Assembly: GCA_021818005.1 (NCBI GenBank)
Contig: JAKAFI010000002.1
Coordinates: 1 to 42,344, forward strand
DNA length: 42,344 nt
Origin: Acidobacteriota bacterium
Lineage (GTDB): Bacteria > Acidobacteriota > Thermoanaerobaculia > Thermoanaerobaculales > Thermoanaerobaculaceae
Direction of reading: 5' to 3'
The notes beneath the pieces were generated by a model. It ran no database searches. It saw only the letters and a list, made by a program, of their open reading frames with translations, and was not told the DNA's origin. Shown here piece after piece: positions 1 to 29,728 of the stretch. Position 1 is the first letter of the stretch. Each line of letters opens with the position of its first letter. A program made the position numbers and the translations under genes.

Positions 1-175
1 GCGTCGGCTCCGGGTCCCGCGACCAGGTCAGGTGCTTCACCTGCTGACCCAGCCTTGGGTTGATGTGGTACCACATCACGTCGTCGAACGGGTCGTCGGC
101 CATTACCAGGTAATGTGGGTTCGCCGGCAGGCGTTGGCAAGGGCACGGCCGGCGCCGGGCGCTCGAGCGGCGCGG
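1..175. repeat. Direct terminal repeat / circular-assembly overlap (identical to 42170-42344 except position 54 C vs 42223 A)
   Basis: Base-by-base comparison of the first and last lines of the window. Confidence 0.97.
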
Positions 176-1985
176 GTCGCGCCAGCGGTGCCTCGCCCTC
201 GCCGAGCGGCATCGCACCGGCGCGAGCGGCCCGCCCGCCCGGCATCCCGGCGGCGCGGTGCTGCCCCAGGGCTCGGGCGCCGGCGTCCCGCAGCTCCTCC
301 GCCGCGGCCTTCTCGCCGAGCTCCGGCGGAGCGCTCGCCGCGCCTTCGCGCACGCCGTCCTCGCCCCACGCCCACCTGGCGCGCGCCTCGCCGGTGAGCC
401 AGGCGGGCGCAAGCTGGTGCCGCCACGCCGCCACCTGCGCCACCTCGGCGCTGTTGCGCTTGCTCGCGAGGAAGCCGGCCGCCTCCGCCGCCGTCATCGT
501 GCTATCCGGTTGCGGTGGCAGGCCAAGCCAACTGAGCTGGCGCTGCTGCACCGGCGTCGGTTCGCCCGTAGCCACCTCGGCCGGCTGGACCGGCACCGGT
601 TCGGCCGGGGAGGCGGCCTTGCGCTGCGCCTTGCGCGCCTGCAGCTCCGCGTCCGCCGCCTTGAACGTCTCGCCATGGGTGCCCGTGAGCGACACCGTGT
701 AGGCCCCGCCCTTGCCGTCCTCGAACCGCTGCTCGCCGAACAGCGCCTCCGCGCGGTCACGCATGGCCGCCGCGCGGTCCGCCGGCACCAGGGCCACGAT
801 CTCATCGCCGCCGCGGCGGAACACGCGCCCACCGACGCCGTGCTCCTCGGCGGCCTGCTGGACCGCGTCGGCCGCGTCGCGGATCACCTGATCGCCGGCC
901 TCCTGGCTGTGGGTCTTGTTGACCTTGCCGGCGTTGTTGAGGTCGAAGGCGACCACGGCGGTCGCGGGGTCGGCCTCGGCCGTGGGGAGCGCGGCGTCGA
1001 GTGCCCGGCGGTTCGCCAGGCCAGTCAGGGCGTCGGTGTTGGCGGCGCGCTCGGCTTCCTGCCGGCGCGTCTCCCCCTCCGGGTAGATCGTCGCCGCCGC
1101 CCTTGCGCGGATTCGCCCCAGGATCGACGAAGGCGGCTCGGAGGGTATCGGAGCCACGGGCGGCGCCGCCGCGGGGCGTACAGGTGGCACAGCGGCCGCG
1201 GGTTGGCCAGAAACCGAGGGGGTCGCCGGCTGCTCCACGGCCGTCTTTTCTGCTTCAGCCCGTGTCCGCATCCGGTCCAAGAGCGTCCCACCAGGCCGCC
1301 GAGCCCCGGCTCCGCCAAGAATTCCCATCACCGCGCCCTCGGCGGCGATGTCCTGCGGAGTCCTTCCCTCCGCCGCCGCGATCGCCGCCGCGGTGCCACC
1401 GGTGCCAGCCACACGGGCGAGCCGCCCAGCACCGCCGAGGCCGTGCATGACGCTGCCGAGGACGGCGCCTTTGATGGTCTCCACGAGGGCCTTGTCGAGT
1501 GGCTCACCTTCCGCCGTCGCCCCGAGGCCTGACGCGGCCGCGAAACCCCCGATCGGCCCCAGCGTTGCAACGTACGGCGCCAGTCCCACGACCTGACCAG
1601 GAGCCGACGCAACGCCGGCGGCGATCTTCGCTGGCAGGGAGCCAGGCTCCCCACTCGGGCCAAGATCCCGGATGAACCGCGCGAACCCCGCCGTCGTGGC
1701 CCGTTCCGCCAGGTCAGGAGGCAAGCCCGGCGCCGCGCGCTCGACCATCGCTCGTTCGTCGCCGAGGCCGGTAAGACGCGTTGCCGTCGTGATCGGCGCG
1801 GCGAGTTGCTTCGGAATCCCCCCGACACCGGCGAGGAGACCCGCAACGAGTGACTTCCCGACGCCGAGGGGAGGCGGATCGAGCACGGCCCCCGGCGGAA
1901 GCGAAGCCATCGGGTCCGGGGCGGAATCCAACACCGCACCCGGCGGCAGGAGTGCCAGGGGGTCTACTTCTTGGCGGGCTGCCAT
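1..1985 (-). CDS. N-terminal part of giant polyvalent virion-associated protein with GGDEF domain (continues at 42169 if circular)
   Basis: Manual translation from ATG at 1985 (MAARQEVDPLALLPPGAVLDS...); no in-frame stop found down to position 1; frame matches the 36877-42315 ORF; 1985+5293 nt = 7278 nt = 2426 codons. Absent from the ORF track because it runs off the edge. Confidence 0.88.
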   Translation of the reverse strand, partial: MAARQEVDPLALLPPGAVLDSAPDPMASLPPGAVLDPPPLGVGKSLVAGLLAGVGGIPKQLAAPITTATRLTGLGDERAMVERAAPGLPPDLAERATTAGFARFIRDLGPSGEPGSLPAKIAAGVASAPGQVVGLAPYVATLGPIGGFAAASGLGATAEGEPLDKALVETIKGAVLGSVMHGLGGAGRLARVAGTGGTAAAIAAAEGRTPQDIAAEGAVMGILGGAGARRPGGTLLDRMRTRAEAEKTAVEQPATPSVSGQPAAAVPPVRPAAAPPVAPIPSEPPSSILGRIRARAAATIYPEGETRRQEAERAANTDALTGLANRRALDAALPTAEADPATAVVAFDLNNAGKVNKTHSQEAGDQVIRDAADAVQQAAEEHGVGGRVFRRGGDEIVALVPADRAAAMRDRAEALFGEQRFEDGKGGAYTVSLTGTHGETFKAADAELQARKAQRKAASPAEPVPVQPAEVATGEPTPVQQRQLSWLGLPPQPDSTMTAAEAAGFLASKRNSAEVAQVAAWRHQLAPAWLTGEARARWAWGEDGVREGAASAPPELGEKAAAEELRDAGARALGQHRAAGMPGGRAARAGAMPLGEGEAPLARPAPLERPAPAVPLPTPAGEPTLPGNGRRPVRRRDVVPHQPKAGSAGEAPDLVAGPGAD
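795..1046 (-). other. GGDEF-like domain within the giant protein
   Basis: Translation NTDALTGLANRRALDAAL...VVAFDLNNAGKVNKTHSQEAGDQVIRDAADAVQQAAEEHGVGGRVFRRGGDEIVALV. Confidence 0.88.
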
Positions 1986-3157
1986 GAAGTCCCGTCCCAC
2001 CGCACCTTCGTGCCATCCGGGAGCGTGGCCGTCCTACCCGGCTCGATTCGCGCGGGCGGTGCTGGCGGCGAGCCCGGCACTGCCCCAACTCCGGGCGCCG
2101 CCGACGGCCAGGCGGTACCGGCCACGCCCGCCGACCCCTCGACTGCGCCGCCACTCAGGCGCGCCTGCAGCACCCGCTGGCGCTGGTCCAGAGCGCCAAG
2201 CTGCGCCTGGAGGTCCGCCGTGCGAGGCGACATGGGCGCCTTGTCGGCCTCCGGATGCAGCGTCCGCGACACCCACCCGGGCCGCGCCGGGTTGGCCTGC
2301 CAGTCGGCCGAGTCCCTCGCCTGCGACCTCGCCAACTCCTTCGCGATCCGATCGTAGGCGGCGGCCGCCTCGTTCAGTTCGCGCACCGGGTCCTCGACCC
2401 GGTCGGCCTTCGGCTTGCCCCACGGCTCCTCTTTGACCACCTCGCCGTTGACGATTGTCTGCTTGAACACCTGCCCCGTGCCGGGGTCGGTGCGGTACTG
2501 CAGCGACCTGCGTTCCTTCTCGGGCGCAGCCGGCGAATCGAACACCCAGCCGCCCGTCGACGGATTCCAGGAGTAGAGCCCCTCGCCTTGTGCGCCGACG
2601 CGGTGCTCGAGGTGTGGCGCCTTGGCCTCGGACCTCGCCGGCGATGAACCCGACAGCCCCATTTCCGCCGCCGCCAACGGGTTGAAGGGGGCGAGAGCGT
2701 TCGCCACGCGCCCGGCCTTGATCGCGTTCACGATCGGCGCGGGCGCCGGTGGCCCCGCCTCGAGGCCCTCGGGCGGAGCCGTCGCCGCCTGGATGGCCGA
2801 CTGCAGGTCGCCCAACTGCCGGTTCGCCTCCGCGTTCTGGAGGTTCCGGGACACCAGGCCGGCCTTGCGCTCCTGTCCGGCCTTGTAGAGCTGGGTCGCC
2901 GTTTCCACGTCGCCCGCTGAGGCGAGGTCCCGCGCCGCCGCGTTCTCGGGCGCGTCCGGATCGTCGGGCAGGTTCGCCAGGAAGGAACCGACGCGGGCCC
3001 GCTCCGTCTGGGCCATGTTGACCAGGTCACGCTGGCGACGCTGCGCCGCCATCGCCTGCGCCGCGTCGATCGCGGTCATGACACCGTGGGCCGCCGCTGG
3101 CGACGTTGCCGACACCCCGCCGGCAAGGAGTGGTAGCAGAACATCGGCGACGCTCAT
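1964..3157 (-). CDS. Putative internal virion/structural protein
   Basis: Internal ATG at 3157 (MSVADVLLPLLAGGVSATSPAAAHG...); stop overlaps next gene start; structural neighbourhood. Confidence 0.7.
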   Translation of the reverse strand: MSVADVLLPLLAGGVSATSPAAAHGVMTAIDAAQAMAAQRRQRDLVNMAQTERARVGSFLANLPDDPDAPENAAARDLASAGDVETATQLYKAGQERKAGLVSRNLQNAEANRQLGDLQSAIQAATAPPEGLEAGPPAPAPIVNAIKAGRVANALAPFNPLAAAEMGLSGSSPARSEAKAPHLEHRVGAQGEGLYSWNPSTGGWVFDSPAAPEKERRSLQYRTDPGTGQVFKQTIVNGEVVKEEPWGKPKADRVEDPVRELNEAAAAYDRIAKELARSQARDSADWQANPARPGWVSRTLHPEADKAPMSPRTADLQAQLGALDQRQRVLQARLSGGAVEGSAGVAGTAWPSAAPGVGAVPGSPPAPPARIEPGRTATLPDGTKVRWDGTSWQPAKK

Positions 3158-3159
3158 GA

Positions 3160-3804
3160 TTACCTCCCCATCCGCGCCAGGTACGCCATCAACCGCTGAC
3201 GAATATCCGGTAGGGTCGTTTCCGTGGTCGGAGACCCGTGGATGAGCCCACCGATCGGGCCGGGACGCACCTGGTTCGCGTCGGCGATCGCACTGCCGAG
3301 GCCGGCCGCCATCTGGGCCCAGCCCGCCGCGTTTCCGCCGCCGGACTCGGTGTCGGGCGCGCCGCCGCCGGCCTCGATCTTCGTCCCCGCGGCCTGACCT
3401 GCCGGCGCTAGAACGGGCGTCCCAGCAACGCCCTGCGACCCGGCGAGGCCAGCATCGCCCACCGCGAGCGTTCGCGAGTTCAGCCCCTCCGTCACCGGAG
3501 GCCGGTCGCCCAGTGCAACGTCGCCGCTCGTGAGGGGCTGCATCGGCGGGAGCTTCTGACCGCCGTCCTCCGGCATCCCCATCGGCTTGAACCCGAACCC
3601 GTGTTCCGCGTCCGGCCCCGTGTTCGACAGCAACGTGGGGTTGCCGGTGTCCGCCAAGGCGGAGCCTACCGTCGGTTTCGCGAACTGCGAGGTGGTCGGG
3701 GTCGTGTCGAGCTTCACCGCCTGACCGGTGGGCCCGGCCTTTGGCGGTGTCGCGAGCTGCTTCACAACCTCGACCGCAATCGGTATTGCCCACGTCATGT
3801 TCAC
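3160..3804 (-). CDS. Hypothetical structural protein
   Basis: ORF with tight gene packing (MNMTWAIPIAVEVVKQLATPPKAG). Confidence 0.7.
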   Translation of the reverse strand: MNMTWAIPIAVEVVKQLATPPKAGPTGQAVKLDTTPTTSQFAKPTVGSALADTGNPTLLSNTGPDAEHGFGFKPMGMPEDGGQKLPPMQPLTSGDVALGDRPPVTEGLNSRTLAVGDAGLAGSQGVAGTPVLAPAGQAAGTKIEAGGGAPDTESGGGNAAGWAQMAAGLGSAIADANQVRPGPIGGLIHGSPTTETTLPDIRQRLMAYLARMGR

Positions 3805-5097: not shown

Positions 5098-5667
5098 TCA
5101 CCACCCGAGCAGGGAACGACTCACCCGCCCTCTGACCGGGGGTCTGGTACCGCCGCCGGGGGTCCCCCCCGGCCCGACGCCGCCGCCCGGCACGACTCCA
5201 GACCTGGTACCCGACCCGCCCGGTCCGACGCCGCCGCCCCAGATCGGCGGCATGACACCGCCACCACCGCCCGGCACGACGCCCGACCCGACACCCGACC
5301 GGATCGGACCGATGCCACCACCACCGACCGGCGGCATGACACCGCCGCCACCGCCCGGCAGGACGTCCGAGCGGGGTTTCGTGATGAACCCACCACCGCC
5401 GACCGGCGGCATGACACCGCCGCCACCGCCCGGCAGGATCTTGCCACCCGCGACCGGCGGCATGACGCCGCCACCGCCCGGCACCGGGATCGAGCTGGTA
5501 CCCGACCCGCCCGGCATGAAGCCGCCACCACCGCCCGGCACGACGCCCCACCTGGTACCCGACCCGCCCGGCACGACGCCGCCACCGCCCGGCACTGGTT
5601 TCGACGACACGCCACCGCCCGCGGTGATACCCGGAGCCCCTCCGCCCGTGAACATTCCTAGCGACAT
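5098..5667 (-). CDS. Gly/Pro repeat protein (PGGGGGVMPPVGGGG repeats)
   Basis: ATG at 5667, MSLGMFTGGGAPGITAGGG...; many near-repeat units. Confidence 0.75.
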   Translation of the reverse strand: MSLGMFTGGGAPGITAGGGVSSKPVPGGGGVVPGGSGTRWGVVPGGGGGFMPGGSGTSSIPVPGGGGVMPPVAGGKILPGGGGGVMPPVGGGGFITKPRSDVLPGGGGGVMPPVGGGGIGPIRSGVGSGVVPGGGGGVMPPIWGGGVGPGGSGTRSGVVPGGGVGPGGTPGGGTRPPVRGRVSRSLLGW

Positions 5668-6143
5668 ATCAGGTCCCTCCTCATGAACGTGCGCCCAACG
5701 ACCTCGCGCCACCCGTACAGCGACCGGTACACGCGCGCCAGGACGGGACTCCGCGCCACCGTCCGCATCTCCGTCACGCCGAGCGCGCGACCCCACTCAA
5801 CCATTTCGCGGTCGATCCCGAGGCACGCCTCGCGGGTGTACGGGTGTCCCTTGTCACTCGCGTGCTGCTCCACCGACAGGACCGTTTCGCCGTGCCAGGT
5901 CGAGACCTCGACGAGCGTGTGCGCCACGACGCGCCCACCCTCGAGGCCGACCCAGACCGCCATCCGCACCTGATCCGCCTGGACCGCCCAGGCCGCGAAG
6001 TGCGCGATGAAGTTCTTGACGAAGTCCCGCGGGATGCGGCCGTACTCCTCGAGGATGAAGAGCTGCAGCCGGCGGATCACCTCGGGCACGAGGAGCCAGT
6101 CGCCCGGGTTGCGGGAGTCGAGGCGATGCCACTCCTCGACCAT
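5658..6143 (-). CDS. GNAT-like acetyltransferase-fold protein
   Basis: MVEEWHRLDSRNPG...ARVYRSLYGWREVVGRTFMRRDL; overlaps tailspike stop. Confidence 0.55.
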   Translation of the reverse strand: MVEEWHRLDSRNPGDWLLVPEVIRRLQLFILEEYGRIPRDFVKNFIAHFAAWAVQADQVRMAVWVGLEGGRVVAHTLVEVSTWHGETVLSVEQHASDKGHPYTREACLGIDREMVEWGRALGVTEMRTVARSPVLARVYRSLYGWREVVGRTFMRRDLICR

Positions 6144-8443
6144 CAGTAACTCGGGTACCACTTGCTGTTGACGTAGGTCATGATCATCGCCTTGTTGACC
6201 ACGGCCGTGCTCGCGAGCGCGATGTTTCCAGTGGTGTTGGTCGTCCAGGCGCCCGTCGGTATCAGCACCAGCGGCCCCGTGAAAGTACCAGCCCAGGGAA
6301 CGTCGATGGTTGCAATCGCCGCCGTACCGGAAACCGCAAACACCTGTCCGGTTGCCGTGACCTTTGTTCCTGATGCCACGGTCGCCCCGGTGGCCAATGC
6401 CAGGAAGCCGGTGGACTGAATCGCTGGAGGCTGGGTTCCATCGCCGGCCAGGCCCGTGTCGGCCATTCCGACCCTTATGTTGTCCTTGACCACCATCACC
6501 GGACTCGTGTTGATCTTTCCGGTGGTTGCCGGCGTGCCACCGCTGGCCGTCCGGTAGAAGTCGAACGACCAGGCCCCGGGCGACGCCGCGCAGCTCACGT
6601 TGTTGTAGTTCGTGGCGTTGAGCACCGCGTTGCCATTCGCCATACTTCCGACCGCCGCCGGGCTGCTCGTGCCATCCGCGAGCTTTGCCACGCACGCGTA
6701 GCTGTAGCTCGTCGTGCCCGGCGTTCCGGCGTAACTCAGGAAGAGCGGGTCCGGTACTGGCAGGTCACTCACGGTCAGGTTGCCGACGGTGGCCGCCCCG
6801 AGGCGCGGCTGCCCGAACGTCCACTTCCCGAACATCACACCGTTGTCGCTGAAACCGCCGATCCCGTCCACGTTTGGTACCGGCTCAGCATCGTCAGTCA
6901 GGAACGGGAGAAACTGGATGCTTTGGTTGCGCGGTGGTTGCCAAACCGGCGTCGTTGGAATGACGTCAATGCCCCCCGGACAGGCGTAGAACACAATGTC
7001 CATTGGAAACCCCGGTGAATCGGAAGGTGCCAAGACCCCGACCCCTGTCCCGTCCGCCGGAAAGTAAACGTTCGTGAAAACGATCGAGTCGGTGAACCGC
7101 AACTTGATTGCATGGCCGGTTCCGCCCCAACCAAGGCCGGGGTAGACCCGAAACGTGCAGTTGACGAAGTAGAACCCCGAGGTGCCCCCTGAACCAGCGG
7201 CCACCGCGGTGCCGAGCACGAGGCCATCGGCCGAGTGCGACCAGCAGTTATCGGCGCCGACGTTCAGGAAGAGCACGTTTTGCGACGGCGGATTTGCAGG
7301 GTATCCCCACGAGTCCACCAGGTACGCCTGAACGCCCCAGTGCTGGCCGTTGACGTTGTGGATCTCCGACGACTGCAGGTGCGTCAGCCAGAGCAGCGTG
7401 TCGGCGCCCGGCGACACCCCACCGTCAAGGTAGAGGTTCTCGAGGACGAACCCCCCGATGGGCCCGAGCACATGGATCATCGCCTTGCCCGTCGTGCCGA
7501 TCCACTTCAAGGTGGTCGCGGTCCCGCCGGCCCCGGACCACCAGCCGCTTGCCGCCGTGGCCTGGCCCGTGATTTTGATGTTCTGCAGCGTCGAGAGCGA
7601 GCTCGCCGTACCGTTGCCGATCGTGATCGTGTCGCTGATCTGACACTCGCCGCCAGGGAGCACGATCGTCGTGCCGCTCGGCACGCTGTTGAAGAGGGCC
7701 TGCAGGCCGGCCGTGCAGTTCGTCCCCGGCGTGACGTACAGGCCCGCGTCGACGAAGGTGCTACCGACCGTGACGCCGGCGCCGGCCGTCTTCTGTCGCA
7801 GGTACCCGGGCCCGGTCGCCGAGAGGTCCGCCGCGGTCCCACCCCGCGCCAGCGCCACCTGCCCGCTCGAGAGGTCCGTTGCCGCAATCGTCGGCGTCGC
7901 GACCAGGCCGAGGTTGCCGACCGCGGTCAGGAGGCTGCCGGTCGGCTTGACGATCGGTACCGAGTTGAAGAAGCCGAGCTTCTGCGTCGTTGCGGTCCCG
8001 ATCTTCGTCCCCGTCGTGGTCCCGGCGACCACGTTCGTACCCTCGCCGAGGTTCAACGAGCCGTTGAGCGTGAAGGCGCCCAGGCTCGGGTTGAACGTCA
8101 TCTTCGTGGAACTCACCTTGATCGGAAGCAATCCCGTCGTCCCGGTCGTCCAGGTCGGGTACTCGGTCGCGTTCGTGGTCGTGTCGTTGCTGATCACCAG
8201 GGCGGAGGCATCGCCACCGTAGTACGGCAGGACCGACCAGGTCGAGGTACCGTCCCCGATCTTGCACTTTCCGGTGTCGGTCTCACAGCCCGGTTCACCT
8301 TGTGCCAGGACGGGGTTGACGGCCGTCCAGTTGGCCGCCGTGTCGCGTCGGAGCTGGATCCGCACGGCGGCATCGGCCACCGGCCCGTACATGAAAAGGC
8401 CGGCCAGGAGGCCGGCCAGGAACAACCCACGAATCCTCATCAT
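6143..8443 (-). CDS. Tailspike/tail fibre protein with N-terminal signal-peptide-like segment and beta-helix-like region
   Basis: MMRIRGLFLAGLLAGLFMYGPVADAAVRIQLRRDTAANWTAVNPVLAQGEPGCETDTGKCKIGDGTSTW then pectate-lyase-like repeats. Confidence 0.8.
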   Translation of the reverse strand: MMRIRGLFLAGLLAGLFMYGPVADAAVRIQLRRDTAANWTAVNPVLAQGEPGCETDTGKCKIGDGTSTWSVLPYYGGDASALVISNDTTTNATEYPTWTTGTTGLLPIKVSSTKMTFNPSLGAFTLNGSLNLGEGTNVVAGTTTGTKIGTATTQKLGFFNSVPIVKPTGSLLTAVGNLGLVATPTIAATDLSSGQVALARGGTAADLSATGPGYLRQKTAGAGVTVGSTFVDAGLYVTPGTNCTAGLQALFNSVPSGTTIVLPGGECQISDTITIGNGTASSLSTLQNIKITGQATAASGWWSGAGGTATTLKWIGTTGKAMIHVLGPIGGFVLENLYLDGGVSPGADTLLWLTHLQSSEIHNVNGQHWGVQAYLVDSWGYPANPPSQNVLFLNVGADNCWSHSADGLVLGTAVAAGSGGTSGFYFVNCTFRVYPGLGWGGTGHAIKLRFTDSIVFTNVYFPADGTGVGVLAPSDSPGFPMDIVFYACPGGIDVIPTTPVWQPPRNQSIQFLPFLTDDAEPVPNVDGIGGFSDNGVMFGKWTFGQPRLGAATVGNLTVSDLPVPDPLFLSYAGTPGTTSYSYACVAKLADGTSSPAAVGSMANGNAVLNATNYNNVSCAASPGAWSFDFYRTASGGTPATTGKINTSPVMVVKDNIRVGMADTGLAGDGTQPPAIQSTGFLALATGATVASGTKVTATGQVFAVSGTAAIATIDVPWAGTFTGPLVLIPTGAWTTNTTGNIALASTAVVNKAMIMTYVNSKWYPSY

Positions 8444-8664
8444 GCGGTACCTCCGTCAGCGGTTTGGTCCGGGGTGTACACGGTCGCGGCCGCGCCGCCC
8501 TCGATGTTGCTCGAGGTCGTCGCAGCGACGTCGGCCAGGCCGCGGGCCAGTTGGATGTAGAGCGAGTCGATGGCTGCCTGCATCTGCTTCGCCCAGCGCA
8601 GCAGGTCCTCGTCGCTGGTTGGTGGCAGCGGCAACCGAAACGTCGGAGGGACGGGCCACGCCAT
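8440..8664 (-). CDS. Small structural protein
   Basis: MAWPVPPTFRLPLPPTSDEDLLRWAKQMQAAIDSLYIQLARG; overlaps both neighbours. Confidence 0.65.
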   Translation of the reverse strand: MAWPVPPTFRLPLPPTSDEDLLRWAKQMQAAIDSLYIQLARGLADVAATTSSNIEGGAAATVYTPDQTADGGTA

Positions 8665-10214
8665 CACCGCGCCCCGAGCAGCTTGTACCCGACGGACGAC
8701 CCCAGGAACACCACCGGCTGCAGCCCCGACCACTCGTATCGGAGCGTCAGCATCCGCCCCGTCGTCCGATGATCCGTGCGCAGCGGCCCGGCCCCGACCA
8801 GGTTGATCGTCGCCGCCGGGCTCATCGTGCGCAGCTCGCCGGCAACCACCGCGCCGACGAACACGCTCACGACCTGGTTGGCAGGCGTGCGGGCAAACCC
8901 GTGATCCCCGCACACCGCGGTCTTCCACGAGGTCATGTTCTCGATGCCCATCAGGCCGTACTCGAAGAGCCCGGGAATCGCGGCACCCAGATCATCGTTG
9001 CCGGCCGGCTCGCAGACCTGGCCAAGCGAGGAACCGAGCAGCGTAACCCGGCGATCCTGACCGAATGAGCCAATCGACTGCGCGACCTGGCCGAGCGGGA
9101 GGGCAATCTCCCCGATCGTGACCTCGGAGGCTGTGGCGAAGTGCCCCCCGGCCGTCATGATCATCGTCGCCCACCGCACCGGGTAGAGCGCCCAGGACGG
9201 AACCGACAGGCAGATTCCGTGCGTCAGCGCTCCGGTCGCCTTGTGCGGGTAGATGAACCACAGCTCGCGCCGGAGCTCGTCGTAGTAGCCCCACGATTGC
9301 GCCCGGTCGGTGTAGAGCCAGTTGTCAGCCACGAACCGCTGAATGTGCGGGCCAACGCTCTCGAAGTCGCTCCCGGTGAACACCCGAACCGAACCGTCCT
9401 CGCACAGCGCGGCATGACCGCCACTCGGCAACTTCACGATCGCGGCCGGCGACACCGGCCCCGGCAACCCGAGGAACTTCGGCGCGTAGGCGAACGGCGT
9501 CTCGCCCGAAAGCGGCGTCGCCAGGTAGATCGCATCGGTCTTGTACACCACAGCGTCGAAGTCGCCGAACTCCACGATTCCCACGACGTCCCCCGGCGTC
9601 TCACCGAACCGCTTCAGGTGCGTGGCCGTGGAGTACCCCGTCGTGAAGTCGGTGTTGTTGGAGGCCTCGATCTCCTGTGGCCCATCGGTGAAGCCACCCA
9701 GTAGCACGTGGTCGGCGGCCACGCCGATGCACCTCGGTACCCGCGTCTCGCCGGCGATGTCGGCGTAGTTGTGCGCGATGTTCGAGTCCCAGGACTTCGC
9801 TCGGTTCGTCGCGTTGACGCCCAGGACGTAGTTGATTCCGGCCTGCTGAAACACCCTGAAAATGACCTGGGACGTTGCCGATCCAGTCAGGCCGTTGGTC
9901 GGGTCCGTGATCGACACCCAGGCCAGCGTCGCCTTGTCCCACCGCAACCAGCCGAGCGTCGTGCCCTGGACCACACGGCGGATCTCAGAGGGGTCGTCGT
10001 ACTGCATGAACCCCAGCGACCGCACGCCGACGCTCGCGCCGAAGGCGATGAGCCCCGGCCTCGAGGCAAAGTTTCCATCACGGTACAGACAGTTCTCCGC
10101 CTCGACCAGGCCCTCCGGATCGACCTTCGTCGGGTGGCGATCGGCCTGGACACCGAGGAGCGGAATCGAAAACCCCATGTAGGGATTCGACGTTGGCATG
10201 CCCGCCTCGATCAC
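8664..10214 (-). CDS. Podovirus-type tail nozzle/stopper-like protein (beta-propeller-like)
   Basis: 516-aa ORF (PSNPYMGFSIPLLGVQADRHP...VEAENCLYRDGNFASRPG) in structural block. Confidence 0.65.
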   Translation of the reverse strand: MIEAGMPTSNPYMGFSIPLLGVQADRHPTKVDPEGLVEAENCLYRDGNFASRPGLIAFGASVGVRSLGFMQYDDPSEIRRVVQGTTLGWLRWDKATLAWVSITDPTNGLTGSATSQVIFRVFQQAGINYVLGVNATNRAKSWDSNIAHNYADIAGETRVPRCIGVAADHVLLGGFTDGPQEIEASNNTDFTTGYSTATHLKRFGETPGDVVGIVEFGDFDAVVYKTDAIYLATPLSGETPFAYAPKFLGLPGPVSPAAIVKLPSGGHAALCEDGSVRVFTGSDFESVGPHIQRFVADNWLYTDRAQSWGYYDELRRELWFIYPHKATGALTHGICLSVPSWALYPVRWATMIMTAGGHFATASEVTIGEIALPLGQVAQSIGSFGQDRRVTLLGSSLGQVCEPAGNDDLGAAIPGLFEYGLMGIENMTSWKTAVCGDHGFARTPANQVVSVFVGAVVAGELRTMSPAATINLVGAGPLRTDHRTTGRMLTLRYEWSGLQPVVFLGSSVGYKLLGAR

Positions 10215-10223
10215 CCTCGCCGG

Positions 10224-10991
10224 TTAGGAACCAAGCCTCACCACCGAGAGGTAATTGAAGATGGCTTGTGCAACCGGATTTGTGGCACCGGTTGGAAACA
10301 CTCCAACCTCAACGTAGTCGCCCACGTTCAGGTAAATAACACCCGTCACCGTGGACCGATTCAAACCGGGGTAGGTCGTGATCGACTTGATTGACCCCGA
10401 ACTTTGCCCGATGGTGTCGTACCGGTTGATCCAGATACCAGTCAGCACCTCACCGGCGGCGGAGTCCGCCGTCACGAGGCATGACGCCGTCACCAGGTAG
10501 TACCCGTTCAGTCCCGCCGGAATCGTGATGCGGCTCGGGTTCGTGACCGGATCGTGAAAGTTGTTGGTGTCGAACGACTCGTTCGCCATCGAGATATAGT
10601 TCGTTGTGCCGTTCGTTAGGACCTGATTTGCTCCGGTGGGGCCCAAGATCCGCGCACCGACGAAGTTCCCCGTGGTCGGAAGCTGGCTCGCTGGTACCTT
10701 CCCCGTCGCGTCGAGCGACGCCACCCCGTTCGCCACCCCCTTCGCGCTCGCCGGAATCACGACCGGCGCCGAGAAGTCCGTGTTGATCGTCACGCCGAGC
10801 GCGTCGCAGATGGTCTGCTCGAGCTGTCCAACCGCGTCGTCGATGTAGCTCACGGGCGTGGAGTTCGACATGCGCGCCGACTTGAACTGGTTCGGGTACG
10901 CCCCGAAGACCGGCGTCGCGAGGTACAGTACCGACGCCACCGCCACCAACAACACGATGGTTCCGAACACCCGCCCTAACCGCTTCCTCAT
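10224..10991 (-). CDS. Putative C1q/TNF-like receptor-binding protein with N-terminal signal/TM segment
   Basis: ATG at 10991: MRKRLGRVFGTIVLLVAVASVLYLATPVFGAYPNQFKSARM...; C-terminal YYLVTAS...TGVIYLNVGDYVEVGVF. Confidence 0.65.
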   Translation of the reverse strand: MRKRLGRVFGTIVLLVAVASVLYLATPVFGAYPNQFKSARMSNSTPVSYIDDAVGQLEQTICDALGVTINTDFSAPVVIPASAKGVANGVASLDATGKVPASQLPTTGNFVGARILGPTGANQVLTNGTTNYISMANESFDTNNFHDPVTNPSRITIPAGLNGYYLVTASCLVTADSAAGEVLTGIWINRYDTIGQSSGSIKSITTYPGLNRSTVTGVIYLNVGDYVEVGVFPTGATNPVAQAIFNYLSVVRLGS

Positions 10992-11004
10992 CGTTGCCCC
11001 CTTC

Positions 11005-11661
11005 TCAGCCAGGTACTTCCATTGAAGCGTCCCCGTCCGAGCCGGCCAGGTCCGCCTGCTCGTCGAGAAAGTCCTGTAGGAGTTCGTCGCGCGTGGCCGA
11101 CCAGACCGCCTGTCGCGCATCCTCGAGCGTCCAGATCGGCACGAAGTCCGCCAGCGCTTCGAACAGGATCAGTTCGTAGGCGTGGTCCATGAAGTCGTCG
11201 GTGTCCAGGCCAGCTCCGAGATCCGGCAACAGGCCCCAGTAGTCGCAGTTCAGCACCACGGCCTGCGCCGGCGGCGGGCCGAGCAACAGCGATCGTCCCT
11301 TGACCGCGTACTCGGCGAGGTCGCCCGACGCGATCCCCGCCGGGTACAGGTACCGAAACACGTCCAGCGACGGGACCGCCGACACGTGGACCACGTCGCC
11401 CGCGGCCCGCAGATACTCCACGTGCGCGAGCGCCACCATCGAGGGATCGAGCGGAACCGAGGTTGCGTTCGCGGCCGCGTTGAGGTTCGCGCTTTGGTAG
11501 TTGAACGAGAAGCGACGGCGCCGGCACAGCCGGCGCCGCGCCATGTTGATGCACCACAGTTGAGCGTCCACGGTCCCGGGAGCCGTCCCATCCGGAAGCC
11601 GGGTCGTGCCGTCCAGGCCACCGAAGCCCAGGAGCATCGTGCGAGCGGTTGCCAGGTCCAC
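11005..11661 (-). CDS. Head-to-tail adaptor-like protein
   Basis: MDLATARTMLLGFGGLDG...; position between capsid and tail genes. Confidence 0.6.
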   Translation of the reverse strand: MDLATARTMLLGFGGLDGTTRLPDGTAPGTVDAQLWCINMARRRLCRRRRFSFNYQSANLNAAANATSVPLDPSMVALAHVEYLRAAGDVVHVSAVPSLDVFRYLYPAGIASGDLAEYAVKGRSLLLGPPPAQAVVLNCDYWGLLPDLGAGLDTDDFMDHAYELILFEALADFVPIWTLEDARQAVWSATRDELLQDFLDEQADLAGSDGDASMEVPG

Positions 11662-11664
11662 GGG

Positions 11665-12048
11665 TCAGCCCTCCGGCGTCGGATGCTCCTCGAAGGTCGC
11701 GGCGATGAGCTCGACCAACTCAGCGTTCGTTGAGCCGTCCTCCGGGGTCAGTTCGAGCGACGCGCACACCTCGAGCAGCGCGGCCTTGTTCATCACGCCG
11801 AGCCGCCCGCGGGTCAACGGCTCCGGTGCCGGCGGCGGATCCGCCTCCAGCACCACGATCGTCAGGAGCGCGGCCGAGGCCGACTCCTCGATGAGCCGCT
11901 GTTCCTGTGGACTCGACGTTTCGTAGACGCCCCACACGACCGGGGGCCCGTCGTAGCCGTCGGGCATGACCTGGTGCACCGGGTGGAACTGGATCTCTCG
12001 CCCGAGCGAAAGCGTGGGGTGGCGCGGGTCGATGTAGCGCTTGCGCAT
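11665..12048 (-). CDS. Hypothetical structural protein
   Basis: MRKRYIDPRHPTLSLGREIQFHPVHQVMPDGYDGPPVVWGVYE; SAP-like C-terminus. Confidence 0.65.
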   Translation of the reverse strand: MRKRYIDPRHPTLSLGREIQFHPVHQVMPDGYDGPPVVWGVYETSSPQEQRLIEESASAALLTIVVLEADPPPAPEPLTRGRLGVMNKAALLEVCASLELTPEDGSTNAELVELIAATFEEHPTPEG

Positions 12049-12051
12049 GCC

Positions 12052-12372
12052 TCACCAGCCCCGGCACTCGAGCCGGACCACCACCGCCGAGAGGTTCGTC
12101 GCGGCTGTCACCTCGGCCGCAACCGTCCCCGCGGCCGCGCACCAGAAAACCATGAGCTTCCCCGTCGTGCGGTTGTACTGCATGAAGTAGGCCGCACCAC
12201 CCGCGTCCACCGGCGTGATGAAGAAGATTCCCTTCCAGCCGAGGGCCGCCGCTGAGATCGGGTACCCGCCGGCCGGGTAGCTCGCATCCAGCGTGGCGTC
12301 GAAGATCGCGTGCCGGCCCACGTCGCCACCCGGCGCCGGGAAGCGTTCCACCTTCGCGATGCTGATTGCCAT
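12052..12372 (-). CDS. Putative capsid decoration/head protein
   Basis: Immediately downstream of capsid gene; MAISIAKVERFPAPGGDVGRHAIFDATLDASYPAGGYP. Confidence 0.6.
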   Translation of the reverse strand: MAISIAKVERFPAPGGDVGRHAIFDATLDASYPAGGYPISAAALGWKGIFFITPVDAGGAAYFMQYNRTTGKLMVFWCAAAGTVAAEVTAATNLSAVVVRLECRGW

Positions 12373-12386
12373 GAGTCCTCCGTCGT

Positions 12387-12415
12387 GGCCGGGCGGGTTT
12401 CTCGCCCGCCCGGCC
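12387..12415. other. Perfect 11-bp-stem hairpin between capsid and decoration genes
   Basis: GGCCGGGCGGG-tttctcg-CCCGCCCGGCC. Confidence 0.85.
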
Positions 12416-12469
12416 GTCTTTCACCACTCGTTTGTGAGAGTCACCCGCGCCAGGTCAGACCGACCCGGA

Positions 12470-13672
12470 TCACGGAATCGGGTCGCCGACGAGCCACTTC
12501 CCGTGCACGGACTGCTGGCCGAGCATGAGGCCCATGACCGCCCGCCACCGGCCCTTGATCCCCTTGTAGCCGTTGTCCTTCTTGATGTCGTCATCGTAGT
12601 GCACCGGCCCGATCGAGCCGTTGCGCCGCGCCGTCTTGATGTACTTCGGATCGACGATGAACACGCGGTTCGTGTCCATCATCGACAGCACACCGGACTG
12701 GATGAGCTGCAGCGCCATCGTCGGCCCCTCGAAGTTCATCACCTTGAGGCCCCAGGTGCCGCGCTTGTCCAGCGGGTCCGACATCGTGAAGTTGCTGACC
12801 GTGGACTTGCGAACCAGGTTTGCCAGCCGCGTGATCGCACCCGCGCCGGCGAACCCCCACTTCGTGTCGGAGCCCTGGTTGTACGACCGCATCTGGGCGA
12901 AGATGTCCAACACGCGGTCGATGCTCGTCCCCGTCGACGTGTCGTCGAAGTTGTTCGACGTGACCCAGTAGTTGAGGCCGCCGGTCAGGTACGACTGCTT
13001 CCCGCCGACGGTCGTGGACACCTTCTTGCCGTAGTACAGCGCCTTCTCCCACTTCAGCTTGAAGCGCTCGGACGCGCGCCGCTTCTCACGCGCCCACGCC
13101 TTCTCCTCGGCCGGCCGGATCTTGGTATCCCGGGCCCAGTCCGACAGCTCGCACGCCTCCTCGATGTCCTGGCAGTAGTTCCAGTCCACCGTCGGCGTGT
13201 CGGAAACCGCGGTCGGGGCGACGTCCCCTTCGATTCCGGCCGGGCTCATGATGTCGAGGTAGTCGAGATCGTTCATCGCCGCCGCACCGCCGCCCCACCC
13301 ACCACGGGTGTCCACCGTGATCGACGTGAACGGGGTCACAGGGTCGGACGCGACGCGGAGCAACTCGTCGGTCCGCCGGTTGCGGATGATGTCGCCGGCC
13401 CGCACCGCCTTCGCGGGCGTGGCACCGGTCAGGTTGATGGTCGTTGCGACGTTCGTGACCGCCCCGCTCACCTGCAGGGCCGTGACCGGCAGCCCCTCGT
13501 TGAACACGGCGTACTCCATGTCGGTCGTTTCCTCGCTCCCCAACTTCGACGTCAGGTTGAACAGCGGAGCGAGATCCGGCACGAGCTTGAACAGCACCTC
13601 GTGGTAGTTCTTGGGCCGCTCGTCGGGAACCGACCAGTCCCCGATGCCACGGGCCCCGATGATGAGGGACAT
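12470..13672 (-). CDS. Major capsid protein
   Basis: 400-aa ORF downstream of scaffold; MSLIIGARGIGDWSVPDERPKNYHEVLFKLVPDLAPLFNLTSKLG... Confidence 0.8.
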   Translation of the reverse strand: MSLIIGARGIGDWSVPDERPKNYHEVLFKLVPDLAPLFNLTSKLGSEETTDMEYAVFNEGLPVTALQVSGAVTNVATTINLTGATPAKAVRAGDIIRNRRTDELLRVASDPVTPFTSITVDTRGGWGGGAAAMNDLDYLDIMSPAGIEGDVAPTAVSDTPTVDWNYCQDIEEACELSDWARDTKIRPAEEKAWAREKRRASERFKLKWEKALYYGKKVSTTVGGKQSYLTGGLNYWVTSNNFDDTSTGTSIDRVLDIFAQMRSYNQGSDTKWGFAGAGAITRLANLVRKSTVSNFTMSDPLDKRGTWGLKVMNFEGPTMALQLIQSGVLSMMDTNRVFIVDPKYIKTARRNGSIGPVHYDDDIKKDNGYKGIKGRWRAVMGLMLGQQSVHGKWLVGDPIP

Positions 13673-13705
13673 GATGACCTCCAGCGGCCGACCCGCTGGA
13701 CTGGC

Positions 13706-14752
13706 CTAGAGCGACTCTTCGAGTTCCCGCGCGAGCCTGTCGATCGGGTTGTCACCCGGTGACGATCCCGCTCCTCGCCTTCCGACACCCTCGCCGGCCG
13801 CCGCCGCCGCCTGACTCCCGCGGTCGGCCGCGCGCGCCTGCAAGGCGTCGAGCAGCTCCGGAGACATGGACATCACGAACGAGCCGTACAGGCGCTTCAG
13901 CCGCTCGGGCGTGACCTTGGTGAAGTCGTCTTCGCCGACCAACTCCTCCGCCACGAACTGCGTGAACGCCGCCCGGTGCTCGGGCTCCTTCAGTTTCCCG
14001 TAGCGCGGTTCACCCGCGATTGCGTCGAGGTCCGCCAGGTAGCGCGACCTGAACGCTGACTCCTCGGCCTCGGCCGTGTACCGGGCCGCCGTGGACGACA
14101 CACCACCCAACTGCTCCTCGAGTTTCGCGAGCCGGGTCGCAAGCGCCATGCCCGCGGCGCGAATGTCCGCGTCGCGGAACAGCTCGAGGGCGACATAGTC
14201 CGGAAGGTCATCGGCCAGCGCCGCGAGTTGCGGCCCGAGTTCCCCCGCCTTGATCGCCTCGATCCTCGGCGTGAAGAAGGCGCGGATTTGCGCCAGTCCT
14301 TCCTTGGTGAGGGCCGGCGTCCGCGTGGGCGTCGCCGGTTCCTCCCTCGTCGGCTGCGCGGGTTGCTGCCGCAACCGTTCGAGTTCCGCCGTCACATCTT
14401 CGGCCCTACGCTTCTCGTTCTCGTGGAGACGTTGGAAGTGCGCCGCCTGATTCGCGGCCGTCACGACCTTGTCCAACAGACCAGCCTCGTTGAGTTCGGA
14501 AATCGTGTAGTCCCGGTCCCCCACCTTGTAGCGCTTCTCGGTGGCAGGTGTTGCGGCCGCGGCGCCCGGCGCCGGCGAGCCCACCTCGGCGGGTTTGCCG
14601 GCATCGCCGGCCGCCCCGCTGGCAGGTTCACCCGGCGCCCCGCTCCCGTCGGCCCCAGCCTCACCCTCCGGACCGGAACCGAAACCGGAGAGCTCGGACT
14701 CGAGGGCCGCCAGGTCGGCGGAGTTGTCGGGCTGTGGTGTGTCTTCGGGCAT
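13706..14752 (-). CDS. Scaffold protein
   Basis: Acidic, coiled-coil-rich, upstream of capsid; ATG at 14752 MPEDTPQPDNSADLAALESELSG. Confidence 0.75.
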   Translation of the reverse strand: MPEDTPQPDNSADLAALESELSGFGSGPEGEAGADGSGAPGEPASGAAGDAGKPAEVGSPAPGAAAATPATEKRYKVGDRDYTISELNEAGLLDKVVTAANQAAHFQRLHENEKRRAEDVTAELERLRQQPAQPTREEPATPTRTPALTKEGLAQIRAFFTPRIEAIKAGELGPQLAALADDLPDYVALELFRDADIRAAGMALATRLAKLEEQLGGVSSTAARYTAEAEESAFRSRYLADLDAIAGEPRYGKLKEPEHRAAFTQFVAEELVGEDDFTKVTPERLKRLYGSFVMSMSPELLDALQARAADRGSQAAAAAGEGVGRRGAGSSPGDNPIDRLARELEESL

Positions 14753-14893
14753 AGTGCCCCCTTCTCGCGCTCCCGGCTCCGACCAGGTCGGCGCGTCAGG
14801 GACTCCGATCGGCCAGGTCGGCGATCGGCCAGATCGCTCCCGGCCCCCGGTCATGGAGGTCCCTCAACTCGCGTTGTTGCGTTGGTGACGGGG

Positions 14894-15289
14894 TTAGGCG
14901 CCCGTCTCGCCGCGGGCCGAGCCCAGCCCCAAGTCGGGCAGGTCGTCGGCCTCGATCATCGCCTTGTAGGCGGCCTCGCGCGTCTCGTAGCCGGCCGCAA
15001 AGACCCATTCCTCGAGGGCAGCCTCGAGCTTCGCCCGCGCCTCACCCACGATCACGCCGCCGTGCTGCGGCGTCGTCTCGTTGGTGACGCACTCCAGCAG
15101 CGACCACGCCGACCGCGCCGCCTCCACGATCGCCCGCAGCTCAGCGACCGACTCCGTGGCCGCTCGAGCCCGCTCGTAGTGGGGCTTGTTCTCGGCGAGC
15201 CAGACGGCCTCGCGCTCCAGTTGCCTCGCGTGTAGCCTCACCCGAACCCCCCAAGGCCTCTTCGCCCAGATCCAGCGCCAGATGCTCAT
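14894..15289 (-). CDS. Hypothetical protein (alternative GTG start at 15241)
   Basis: ORF track; GGGGGG Shine-Dalgarno-like tract upstream of GTG. Confidence 0.55.
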   Translation of the reverse strand: MSIWRWIWAKRPWGVRVRLHARQLEREAVWLAENKPHYERARAATESVAELRAIVEAARSAWSLLECVTNETTPQHGGVIVGEARAKLEAALEEWVFAAGYETREAAYKAMIEADDLPDLGLGSARGETGA

Positions 15290-15518
15290 ACCTCGCCCGT
15301 TCCTGCCGGCGACGCCGGCACGTCGCGGCCCACTGCTCGCCCCTCACCGGCTCGATCCCCACGGCTCGGCACGCCGCGACCGCCGCGTGTGTGCTGTCGG
15401 AACACGGCCGGGCGGGCCACCCGCACAGGTAGACCACGCCGCTCCCGTGAAGAGCTCCGCACCGAGGGCACCGATTCTCAATGCCTTCCACCGGTGGCAC
15501 CTGTACGCCCGCCATCAC
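15141..15518 (-). CDS. Zinc-finger-like hypothetical protein
   Basis: NRCPRCGALHGSGVVYLCGWPARPCSDSTH; overlaps portal stop. Confidence 0.55.
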   Translation of the reverse strand: MMAGVQVPPVEGIENRCPRCGALHGSGVVYLCGWPARPCSDSTHAAVAACRAVGIEPVRGEQWAATCRRRRQERARYEHLALDLGEEALGGSGEATREATGARGRLARREQAPLRAGSSGHGVGR

Positions 15519-17599
15519 CTCGCCCCGCCCGGACCGGCCGGCAGCGCCGGGGCCCCCTGCATCGGCATCCGCATGCCGGGTACCATCGCCGCCGACTGCG
15601 CCGCCGGCAGCGGCACCATGTTTCCGGCCTGCTCGGCGGCCGCCACCTGCTCGTCAGGAACCACCTTGATGAAGAAGTTGTCCAAGTAGTTGATACCGAG
15701 GTTCTGGGCAATCTGCTCGACGATCGCTCGCGTGTTGAGGATCTTGCCGTCGGGGCCCGGCTGTAGCAGGCCAGGCACGTTCGCGCCGGCCTTGATGAGT
15801 TCGAGCCAGGTATCCGCGAACCGGGCCGGGTCCGCCGGCATCGTCGGCGAGAGCGTCCGGTAGTCGTAGTTGCCCCAGAGGTCCTCGGGTCGCACGAACA
15901 CCTGCTCCGCGCCGATTTGCTTCGCCAGGTCGCCGCGGATGCGGAACCACTGCGCCTTGGTGCGGAACGCCAGGAGGTTTTGCACCATGCGCAGGACCGT
16001 GGGCCGCTGCAGCATCCCGTCGAGCAGTTGCCCGATCTTCACCAAGCGCTGGCTCGCGGAACCCATCGCCGCCTCGATCTCGCCCTTGGTTCGATCGCCC
16101 GGCGTCCGCATGCCGGCCAGCGTGTCGTTGGCCGCCAGCATCCGCTGACCCCAGCCGAACAGCTCGGTGGCCAGGCTCATGTTGCCGGCCGTGGTGTCCA
16201 TGACCGCCATTTGCTGCAGGAACGACCCAATCGGGTGTCCCATCTTCACGAGCTTCCTGCCCTCGGAGGTCAGGTTGATGATCTTGCCGGGCCCGGGACT
16301 GCGGAGGTTCGCCGTCTCGACCAACGTCGGGTCGGTGATCACCATGTTGTACAGCGAGGTCATGACGTTCAGCAGGTGCGAGTTGACCGAGAAGTTGACG
16401 GCCCGCTGAATCCCGTCGATGAGTTCGCCCGAGCCCGGTGTGAACGGCGCGTGCAGGTCCGGGTTGGATTGCCCGATCGAGTAGGTGAACTGCCCGTGCA
16501 CGTCGTTGTACGCCGACGGGTGGCACCGCACGATCACGTCGCCACCCTCGCCCACCCAGGTGAACCACCAGATTTCGAGGTCCTCGGAATCCGAGAGCTG
16601 CCACCACCTCGGGACCAGGCGAATCTGCATCGTCCGCGCCCGCATGAAGCCGGGGTCCGTGGACTCGAGGCCCAGCGCCAGGCCGCTGTCGAAACTGCCC
16701 GTCGTTTGCCGGCCGGCGGCCTGGTCCTGCCGCGTCGTCGGCACCGTCCGCGCCCGATCGAGGTTGAAGTATGGGCCGCCCAGCTCGCGCCGGCCCGACC
16801 AGAGCGAGGAGAACGCCTTGTACATCCAGTGCCCGAACCACTCGCCCTCTTGCAGCCGCGCGATCGACACCCGCGGGTCAGGCAGCAGGCAGAAGGGGTC
16901 GAGCGTCTCGACCTTGGTGAACTGCCGGCGGATACCCTCGCGCGTCGTCGGCGTCCGCAGCGCCTCGATCGCCCACGGCGGGAGCATCTGTTGGAACATC
17001 GCCCGGCGCGCCGGCGCGATACGGTCGATCGGCCGCTCCTGCAGGCGGCCGCGCTCCTCGAACCACGAGTCGTACCAGCAGCAGGTGCCATAGCGCTCGG
17101 CATCGAAACACGCCTGAAACTGGTTCAGGCTGTGCTGACTCTGGTCCAGGTCGTACAACAGCCCCGCCTCGACCAGGCGAGCCCCAGCGACGTCCTCGGG
17201 GCCCGTGCCCTGGAGCTGCGGGTCGCGTTGGCCGAGGATCTGCGACAGGATGAGCGTCCGCGTCCACAGGGTCGCGTAGGTCACTGGCATCGACACCGAG
17301 CGCCCGAACGGCATTTCCCGCTTGCCGTCGGGACTCGGCGTCTTGTCGCCCTGCTTCGCGGTCCGGGACAGGTCGATGAACAGGCGTAGGTGTTGATCGA
17401 CCTCGATCCAGTCGTCGTACCGCTGGGCGATATGACTCTCGGCGGCCGTCGAGCGCTGAACCAGCCGGGTCAAGATCGACGAGTGAAGCGGCGAGCCAAC
17501 CGCCAAGCGCTGCCACAGCGGCGGCTCCACTACCTCGACGCGGACCTCCCCCGAGGCCGCCACCACCGCGCCGGCCGGAGTGCTCGCTGAGTCCTGCAT
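15515..17599 (-). CDS. Portal protein
   Basis: 694-aa ORF between terminase and scaffold with portal-like length and composition. Confidence 0.8.
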   Translation of the reverse strand: MQDSASTPAGAVVAASGEVRVEVVEPPLWQRLAVGSPLHSSILTRLVQRSTAAESHIAQRYDDWIEVDQHLRLFIDLSRTAKQGDKTPSPDGKREMPFGRSVSMPVTYATLWTRTLILSQILGQRDPQLQGTGPEDVAGARLVEAGLLYDLDQSQHSLNQFQACFDAERYGTCCWYDSWFEERGRLQERPIDRIAPARRAMFQQMLPPWAIEALRTPTTREGIRRQFTKVETLDPFCLLPDPRVSIARLQEGEWFGHWMYKAFSSLWSGRRELGGPYFNLDRARTVPTTRQDQAAGRQTTGSFDSGLALGLESTDPGFMRARTMQIRLVPRWWQLSDSEDLEIWWFTWVGEGGDVIVRCHPSAYNDVHGQFTYSIGQSNPDLHAPFTPGSGELIDGIQRAVNFSVNSHLLNVMTSLYNMVITDPTLVETANLRSPGPGKIINLTSEGRKLVKMGHPIGSFLQQMAVMDTTAGNMSLATELFGWGQRMLAANDTLAGMRTPGDRTKGEIEAAMGSASQRLVKIGQLLDGMLQRPTVLRMVQNLLAFRTKAQWFRIRGDLAKQIGAEQVFVRPEDLWGNYDYRTLSPTMPADPARFADTWLELIKAGANVPGLLQPGPDGKILNTRAIVEQIAQNLGINYLDNFFIKVVPDEQVAAAEQAGNMVPLPAAQSAAMVPGMRMPMQGAPALPAGPGGAR

Positions 17600-22685: not shown

Positions 22686-23597
22686 TCACCTCCCCGGCCG
22701 CGGCACCCGCAGCCGGCCCTGCAGGGACCGCTTACGGGCCTCGCCCCGCCGGTCGTAGCGTCCCGTCGTGTCCGCCGACTCGTGCCCGAGCAACGCCTGT
22801 ACCAACAGCACGTCGCCCAGCTCGAGCAGCTCCGTTGCGAAGGTCCGCCGCAGATCGTGCGGCGTGATACCGACCACCCCGGCCGCCTTGGCCCGACGCT
22901 GCACCAGGTCGAACACGGCCTGCGCGGAGAGCGGCACCGGCCGCTGGATCACCCTCCCGGCCCGCACCTGCTGCAACACCGGACCGTCCGCGTCGCCCCG
23001 CGCCGCGAGCCACGCCTCGACCCACTCCAGACCGTCGCCCAGGTACGACTGCCGCACCTTCCGGCCCTTGCCCTGGACCACCACCGCCCCGGTGGCGCGG
23101 TCGACCGCCGACACGGGCAGGTCCGCCGCCTCCCGCCGGCGCAGACCCGCGGCGTGGAGCAGGGCGATCGCCGCGCCGTCGCGCAGGCCCCGAACCGAGT
23201 CCGCCGCACACGAGCGGTACAGCGCCTCGACCTCGCCCGTCGACAGTGCCCGGCCGGCGAGAGCCGGGGAACCCCTCACCCCGTCGATGTCCGCCGCTCG
23301 CGCGTAGGCGTCTTGGGACATGAGCCCTAGACGCCAGGCCATGCGCAGCGTGCGCCGCAGCGCCGTCAACAACCGGTTGGCCGTCGGCGCCGCGTACCCC
23401 CGCTCGATGAGCGCCGCGCGAACCCTACTCGTCGTCAGGAACGTCAACCGCTGCCAGGAGATACGGTACGGGTCCGAGTGCTCGTTGCCGGTCACGAGCC
23501 GGGCCAGCACCCGGAGCGCCGAGTGCTGCGACCGCCGCCCGTCGACAGTCCCGAGCGTGGCGACGTACTCGCGGGCAGCGTTGGGTTTACGCTTCAT
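22686..23597 (-). CDS. Tyrosine recombinase (XerC/D-like)
   Basis: AGLRRREAADL (Arg), GITPHDLRRTFATELLELG (HxxR), LLGHESADTTGRYD (H...Y). Confidence 0.9.
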   Translation of the reverse strand: MKRKPNAAREYVATLGTVDGRRSQHSALRVLARLVTGNEHSDPYRISWQRLTFLTTSRVRAALIERGYAAPTANRLLTALRRTLRMAWRLGLMSQDAYARAADIDGVRGSPALAGRALSTGEVEALYRSCAADSVRGLRDGAAIALLHAAGLRRREAADLPVSAVDRATGAVVVQGKGRKVRQSYLGDGLEWVEAWLAARGDADGPVLQQVRAGRVIQRPVPLSAQAVFDLVQRRAKAAGVVGITPHDLRRTFATELLELGDVLLVQALLGHESADTTGRYDRRGEARKRSLQGRLRVPRPGR

Positions 23598-23778
23598 CCG
23601 TGGCCCAACTTTCAAGAATTGGAGTTTTCACGGTGAACGTCAGTCCGGCCTGCCACCACAAGGGTTGCCGCCCAATCATCGGATCACCGGTTTGCCCGTG
23701 TCGAGGGACCGGCTCCCCGAGGGCGACGAGGCCCTGCCAGAGCGCTTGCGACACCTCTTCGCCGTCACTGTTGGTCAC
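23587..23778 (-). CDS. Small protein with duplicated EEVSQALWQ-LVALGEPVP motif
   Basis: GTG at 23778: VTNSDGEEVSQALWQGLVALGEPVPRHGQTGDPMIGRQ. Confidence 0.45.
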   Translation of the reverse strand: MTNSDGEEVSQALWQGLVALGEPVPRHGQTGDPMIGRQPLWWQAGLTFTVKTPILESWATDEA

Positions 23779-24301
23779 CCTCGAGACCCGCAATCCGCTC
23801 CAGCCCGCGGCGCAGGGTGGCGACCGCCTGGTGCATCGCAACCTCCGCAGGGACCGGCTCGCCCAGCGCGACGAGGGCCTGCCAGAGCGCCTGCGAAACC
23901 TCTTCCGTGATCCCGGCCCGCCCGCGACCGCCGGCGACCAGCGTGGCAAGCGCCCGCTCGAAGAACCGCAGCGGCATCTTGCCGATCGTCGTGGCGGCGC
24001 GCGGGTTGGCATCGAGGGCCGCGTGCAGTTGCGGGTTGCGCTGCCAGAACTCGGCGAACGGTCGGAGCGCCGCCAAGCAGTCGTACACGAACGCCCCAGG
24101 TCCCGCGACGCCGGCCGCGGCGTTGCAACACTCCACGATCCGCTGGCGGAGCACGACGCCGCAGTGCCGGATTTCGAAGACCGTCTGGCCGCGCTTGTTG
24201 ACCACGACCCGCCCCTCCGGGCCGCTCAGCCGCCACGGCTCGCCGAGGTCCGGCGCCCACGCCGCGCCACCGTCCAGGTACGGAGTTTCCGTCTCGCTCA
24301 T
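23765..24301 (-). CDS. Hypothetical protein
   Basis: ATG at 24301 MSETETPYLDGGAAWAPDLGEPWRL. Confidence 0.6.
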   Translation of the reverse strand: MSETETPYLDGGAAWAPDLGEPWRLSGPEGRVVVNKRGQTVFEIRHCGVVLRQRIVECCNAAAGVAGPGAFVYDCLAALRPFAEFWQRNPQLHAALDANPRAATTIGKMPLRFFERALATLVAGGRGRAGITEEVSQALWQALVALGEPVPAEVAMHQAVATLRRGLERIAGLEGDQQ

Positions 24302-28228: not shown

Positions 28229-28417
28229 CTACTTGCTGGGGGGCCGACCCACGCACGGAGGCAACACCAGCGAACCCCGGCGCCAGGCCTCGCTGTGAAC
28301 CCGGCGCGACTGCCGCTGAGCGATCAGACGACGCGACGCGGCGGCCAGCAGCCGCAACGCCACCCACTCCACGCCGTGCCAGAGGTTGTCCCTGATGATG
28401 TACGCTCGCATGATCAC
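28229..28417 (-). CDS. Hypothetical protein
   Basis: MIMRAYIIRDNLWHGVEWVALRLLAAASRRL; overlaps MTase stop. Confidence 0.5.
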   Translation of the reverse strand: MIMRAYIIRDNLWHGVEWVALRLLAAASRRLIAQRQSRRVHSEAWRRGSLVLPPCVGRPPSK

Positions 28418-29571: not shown

Positions 29572-29728
29572 CCCAACCCCCCAAGGCCCGGCCCCCCCGC
29601 CGAGGGGCCGGGTTTGGAGGAGGTAGAGCGACGCGCACAACCACACCGGCCGGCGGACCGGCGCCGAGGGCGACCCCGGCCCTCGCTGCGGGAGAACGGT
29701 CTTGCCTGAGCGCAACCGCACGGTCTGC

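Follow-up and report, generated by a model that had tools for sequence, protein, structure and literature searches.

The idea of a cyclic-nucleotide synthase carried in an injected polyvalent protein has been in print since 2017. Iyer et al. 2017 (PMC5512222) list GGDEF among the polyvalent-protein domains, with an Acetonema longum prophage protein (WP_004096050.1) as an example, take phage polyvalent proteins encoded near late genes to be packed in the virion, and propose that such proteins interfere with host cyclic-nucleotide responses. Compact GGDEF domains are also encoded by Bordetella phages CN1, CN2, FP1 and LK3 and Pseudomonas phage WP2 (Vojvodinavirus, Yuavirus-like), as ~153-aa single-domain proteins outside the virion module; lysogens of LK3, with its stand-alone GGDEF gene, form more biofilm, a correlative observation (PMC8471281). 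The literature searched yielded no study in which a virion-borne GGDEF domain had been tested biochemically. To this known kind of phage protein we add a group of relatives that, as aligned, share a consistent, clade-specific change in the active site.

The protein described here is encoded in a contig of 42,344 nucleotides from acidobacterial DNA, a complete phage genome, referred to in full as the window. Like the polyvalent GGDEF proteins of Iyer et al., it is giant and multidomain, lies in a virion gene neighbourhood and has the same proposed role in nucleotide signalling; it differs from the Acetonema example in coming from another host phylum and in having no recognised named companion domain. 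Its Gly332/Lys336 signature (PleD numbering) found no mention in the passages of the 2017 paper that were consulted. The Vojvodinavirus and Yuavirus-like proteins have the same best PHROG match (phrog_5594) and a similar predicted fold but are ~38% identical to it and keep the canonical K332 and D336. With PleD, WspR and DgcB (PF00990) the window domain has in common the fold, the metal and guanine ligands and the final-helix lysine, whereas it lacks an I-site and any known sensory domain, has a shorter C-terminal half and carries Gly332/Lys336. The genes and regions on which the comparison rests are as follows.

1 to 175, repeated at 42170 to 42344: terminal repeat, found by end-to-end comparison
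1 to 1985, minus strand: N-terminal 661 codons of the polyvalent protein, the frame continuing over the circular joint at 42169
36877 to 42344, minus strand: remainder of the polyvalent protein, which ends in the stop codon 36877–36879
618 to 1088, minus strand: entire GGDEF domain together with the helix before it, residues 300–456 (Pfam, AlphaFold and PDB fold matches)
1964 to 3793, minus strand: 609-aa ORF of unknown function, whose last 22 bases are shared with the beginning of the polyvalent gene
5098 to 17599, minus strand: virion module, upstream of the polyvalent gene and in the same direction, comprising the next five entries
6143 to 8443, minus strand: Mtd_N tail fibre (N-terminal domain of the BPP-1 major tropism determinant)
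8664 to 10214, minus strand: structural protein
11005 to 11661, minus strand: adaptor
12470 to 13672, minus strand: SU10-type major capsid protein
15515 to 17599, minus strand: portal-like protein

The contig ends are identical at 174 of 175 positions, and this recurrence of 1–175 at 42170–42344 with a single mismatch indicates a phage genome of ~42,169 bp in circular or terminally redundant form. When the ends are joined, a single minus-strand frame of 2441 codons runs from stop to stop and encodes a 2425-aa protein, from an ATG at 1985 through the joint to the stop at 36877. The initial annotation had held that this frame was missing from the ORF track because the gene runs off the contig edge, and the open joined frame bears this out. 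Misassembly at the contig ends can be rejected as an explanation: a related protein from a sibling MAG of the same genus aligns unbroken through the joint (residues 300–1141, 72%), and the length of 2425 aa is therefore no assembly illusion. The phage origin and giant polyvalent character proposed from the letters alone are also supported.

Because of the 22-base overlap, the 609-aa ORF and the polyvalent gene can be placed in one operon, in which the polyvalent gene is the last gene of the virion series; a very large multidomain protein beside virion genes is one mark of the polyvalent class, and here a 2425-aa protein stands at the end of the virion module. An integrase gene at 22686–23615 suggests a temperate life style. 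Two adjacent DNA methyltransferase genes, one of N6/N4 type and one of C5 type (28414–31330, minus strand), probably serve restriction evasion. A diversity-generating retroelement was considered for the Mtd_N fibre and set aside, as a search of the assembly gave no reverse transcriptase. The host is probably a member of the Acidobacteriota, since a near-identical module occurs in a MAG of the same genus that bears the title ‘Acidobacteria bacterium’; bin assignment by itself is no proof. The host bin encodes 10 other GGDEF, 3 EAL and 6 PilZ domains, so that a host of this type would be expected to respond to c-di-GMP.

The peptide by which the domain was first recognised is encoded at 795–1046 on the minus strand and represents the GGDEF core, with the full domain extending over ~618–1088. 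Homology and predicted fold together confirm that residues 300–456 form a real GGDEF nucleotidyl-cyclase domain, as the initial annotation had proposed. Pfam GGDEF (PF00990) matches at 45.7 bits against a cut-off of 23.8 (E 7.6e-12; 48.8 bits in the genome scan), phrog_5594 at E 9.9e-18 and four more PHROG families, all of unknown function, at E below 1e-4, while a sequence search of the PDB returned diguanylate cyclases, with DgcB best at 1e-7. Structure prediction had been named as the check on the GGDEF/palm fold, and AlphaFold2 returned that fold for residues 291–461 with a mean pLDDT of 91.6 and a pTM of 0.83. Because bacterial GGDEF rows were among the 28 rows of the input alignment, the model supports the assignment but is not fully independent of homology. 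Among the matches listed in a fold search of the PDB, the top ones were GGDEF proteins, almost all of them carrying the name diguanylate cyclase, with E down to 1e-8; they include DgcB, SadC, SiaD, WspR and PleD, and several of the structures hold GTP or c-di-GMP. The GGDEF protein of Bordetella phage CN1 superposes on the window model at 1.9 Å over 142 columns.

In PleD, D327 and E370 hold the metal and N335 and D344 read the guanine, while phosphate is held by K442 and R446 and contacted by the main chain of residues F330–K332 (PMC7288161); K332 has been called a transition-state stabiliser, and some GGDEF proteins are inactive despite having every canonical residue (PMC12943098). The corresponding positions in the window, assigned by alignment, are these.

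915 to 947, minus strand: FDLNNAGKVNK motif, in which D348 corresponds to PleD D327 (metal) and N356 to N335 (guanine)
891 to 893, minus strand: D365, corresponding to PleD D344 (guanine), invariant in the close family
798 to 812, minus strand: GGDEI signature, residues 392–396, whose third position (D394) is the metal/catalytic acid
618 to 632, minus strand: K452 and K456 of the final helix, corresponding to PleD K442 and R446 (phosphate)

The residues associated with active diguanylate cyclases (D327, N335, D344, GG(D/E)E and K442) are all present, and D327, N335, D344, GGDE and K442 are invariant in an eight-row family alignment that includes six viral rows 53–64% identical to the window. 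Alignment to PleD thus upholds the initial reading that D327, N335, D344 and GGDE fall in register, and GVGG does occupy the place of the I-site RxxD. The accompanying claim that only the last motif position (F to I) differs did not survive the comparison. Within FDLNNAGKVNK, N350 replaces D329, A352 replaces F331, G353 replaces K332 and K357 replaces D336, and R446 has become lysine (K456). The cyclase consensus DxDxFKxxND reads D-L-N-N-A-G-K-V-N-K in the window, which has Gly332, Lys336 and Asn329 in place of K332 and its usual context. By alignment, then, the active site departs further from the canonical one than first claimed. Gly332 need not abolish phosphate binding, since residues 330–332 of PleD bind phosphate via the main chain.

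Gly332 and Lys336 recur in all 12 rows of a phage clade found mostly within giant proteins, and these rows fall to one side of a single branch of the tree, with moderate support (94/47). Among nine GGDEF domains tallied from the host bin, Lys332 is present in every one and Asp336 in eight. Alignment-based scans of viral contigs yielded eight close-family relatives (L019–L025 and L084), with open frames between 845 and 4436 aa long, some of them truncated where the contig stops; single-sequence scans of the same kind of contigs with the domain and the C-terminal region as queries found no relatives. Unannotated human-faecal matches labelled ‘Bacteriophage sp.’, which mostly resemble bacterial GGDEF proteins, were set aside. 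A stand-alone version of 185 aa (L033) occurs in a Pyrinomonadaceae MAG. A more distant branch (L026–L028) consists of 409–413-aa phage proteins with Asn where PleD has the guanine-reading D344, a substitution that suggests altered specificity. By BLASTP the window protein resembles seven giant phage proteins over residues 289–456 only; the GGDEF unit is therefore a module that has moved between polyvalent proteins with no other relationship to one another. LPD22 (the Pfam ‘large polyvalent protein associated domain’) is found in three of these seven and ART-PolyVal, above its cut-off, in one. Two tail genes and one resembling an endolysin gene precede the giant gene of L025, and that of L020 adjoins a gene for an internal-virion-protein-like product.

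Comparison with the sibling acidobacterial phage, at the level of sequence, shows the GGDEF domain to be conserved under constraint. Between the two proteins the domain is 96–100% identical, whereas the bins preceding it are 22–44% identical and those around residues 601–750 only 40–50%; dN/dS comes to 0.125 for the domain and 0.40 for the linker after it, rough values with only 11 changes in the domain. The sibling frame has one in-frame stop past the domain, either real or an assembly error. Two islands of 92–97% DNA identity (sibling contig L012, 13360–14345 against window 112–1097, and 16136–16796 against window 40103–40763) stand within polyvalent genes that have otherwise diverged around them, and we read these islands as module exchange between the two phages. 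Among the other window genes tested, the integrase alone matches the sibling contig.

For the remainder of the protein, Pfam searches with C-terminal pieces gave nothing above cut-off and no named polyvalent domain; the companion domains of relatives, LPD22 and ART-PolyVal, are likewise not recognised by Pfam in the window protein. One motif was picked out by eye.

41848 to 41862, minus strand: HELIE motif, residues 765–769, conserved in the sibling and without a Pfam match

HELIE is a possible zincin-like metallopeptidase site, in a region that AlphaFold models with a pLDDT of only 51.6; scans with this region and with residues 1180–1310 gave no matches. An imperfect internal repeat occupies residues 1300–1470 (~39744–40257, minus strand), where KPLLWERA...GQSN.S.E.IA occurs twice, and has a further match elsewhere on the sibling contig, at ~23673–23831.

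We regard the overall picture, in which a GGDEF cyclase within a virion-delivered polyvalent protein acts on host nucleotide signalling, as evenly balanced between true and false, and lean somewhat towards each of its two parts taken singly: catalysis by the window domain, as judged from its residues, and delivery of the protein with the virion. The protein would travel inside the phage head or tail and would enter the cell together with the phage DNA; inside the host, the GGDEF domain would dimerise, bind GTP with Mg and make c-di-GMP or a close cyclic dinucleotide, free of product inhibition. The resulting early pulse may shift the c-di-GMP state of the host, or confuse a nucleotide-based defence, ahead of phage gene expression. 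Delivery has to be weighed against synthesis in the cell, for example during lysogeny, which would make this an ordinary phage-encoded cyclase. The integrase and the biofilm phenotype of LK3 lysogens agree with that reading, but the window gene lies within a late virion operon and the L025 gene adjoins tail and lysis genes, and we consider synthesis in the cell improbable.

Weighing against a cyclase are Gly for K332, Lys for D336 and Ala at residue 331. The domain might instead bind GTP without forming a product. It would then sense nucleotides or play a structural part, and in this way switch a different domain of the polyvalent protein once inside the cell. Degenerate GGDEF domains often lose their metal and guanine ligands first, and all of these ligands are retained throughout the close family, which argues against such a role; in its favour are the clade-wide loss of K332 and D336 and the existence of degenerate GGDEF domains that serve as GTP sensors or ATPases (cited in PMC12943098). 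On balance we hold it to be unlikely, though the most serious of the alternatives. The altered helix that follows the metal-binding Asp could also direct synthesis of something other than c-di-GMP, whether a mixed, linear or decoy product, against nucleotide-signalling defence. GGDEF proteins with altered active-site residues do make other cyclic dinucleotides (PMC12943098), and Gly332/Lys336 is consistent in 12 of 12 clade rows; the guanine readers N335 and D344 are nevertheless kept in the close family, with D344 replaced by Asn only in L026–L028, and this explanation seems doubtful. Equally speculative is the proposal that the Gly332/Lys336 clade (FDxNNFGxxNK) constitutes a distinct virion-delivered nucleotidyl cyclase, in which an altered phosphate-binding helix would lead to a different product or kinetics and so provide an instant signal, or a decoy against nucleotide-based defence.

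A virion-borne cyclase, if the preferred picture is true, would allow the level of a host second messenger to be changed before any phage gene is read. An active-site change that extends across a whole clade deserves a test, and the relatives collected here provide several small domains that resemble one another and have one such change in common. Because of this, a single biochemical comparison could decide both the function and the product of virion-borne GGDEF domains.
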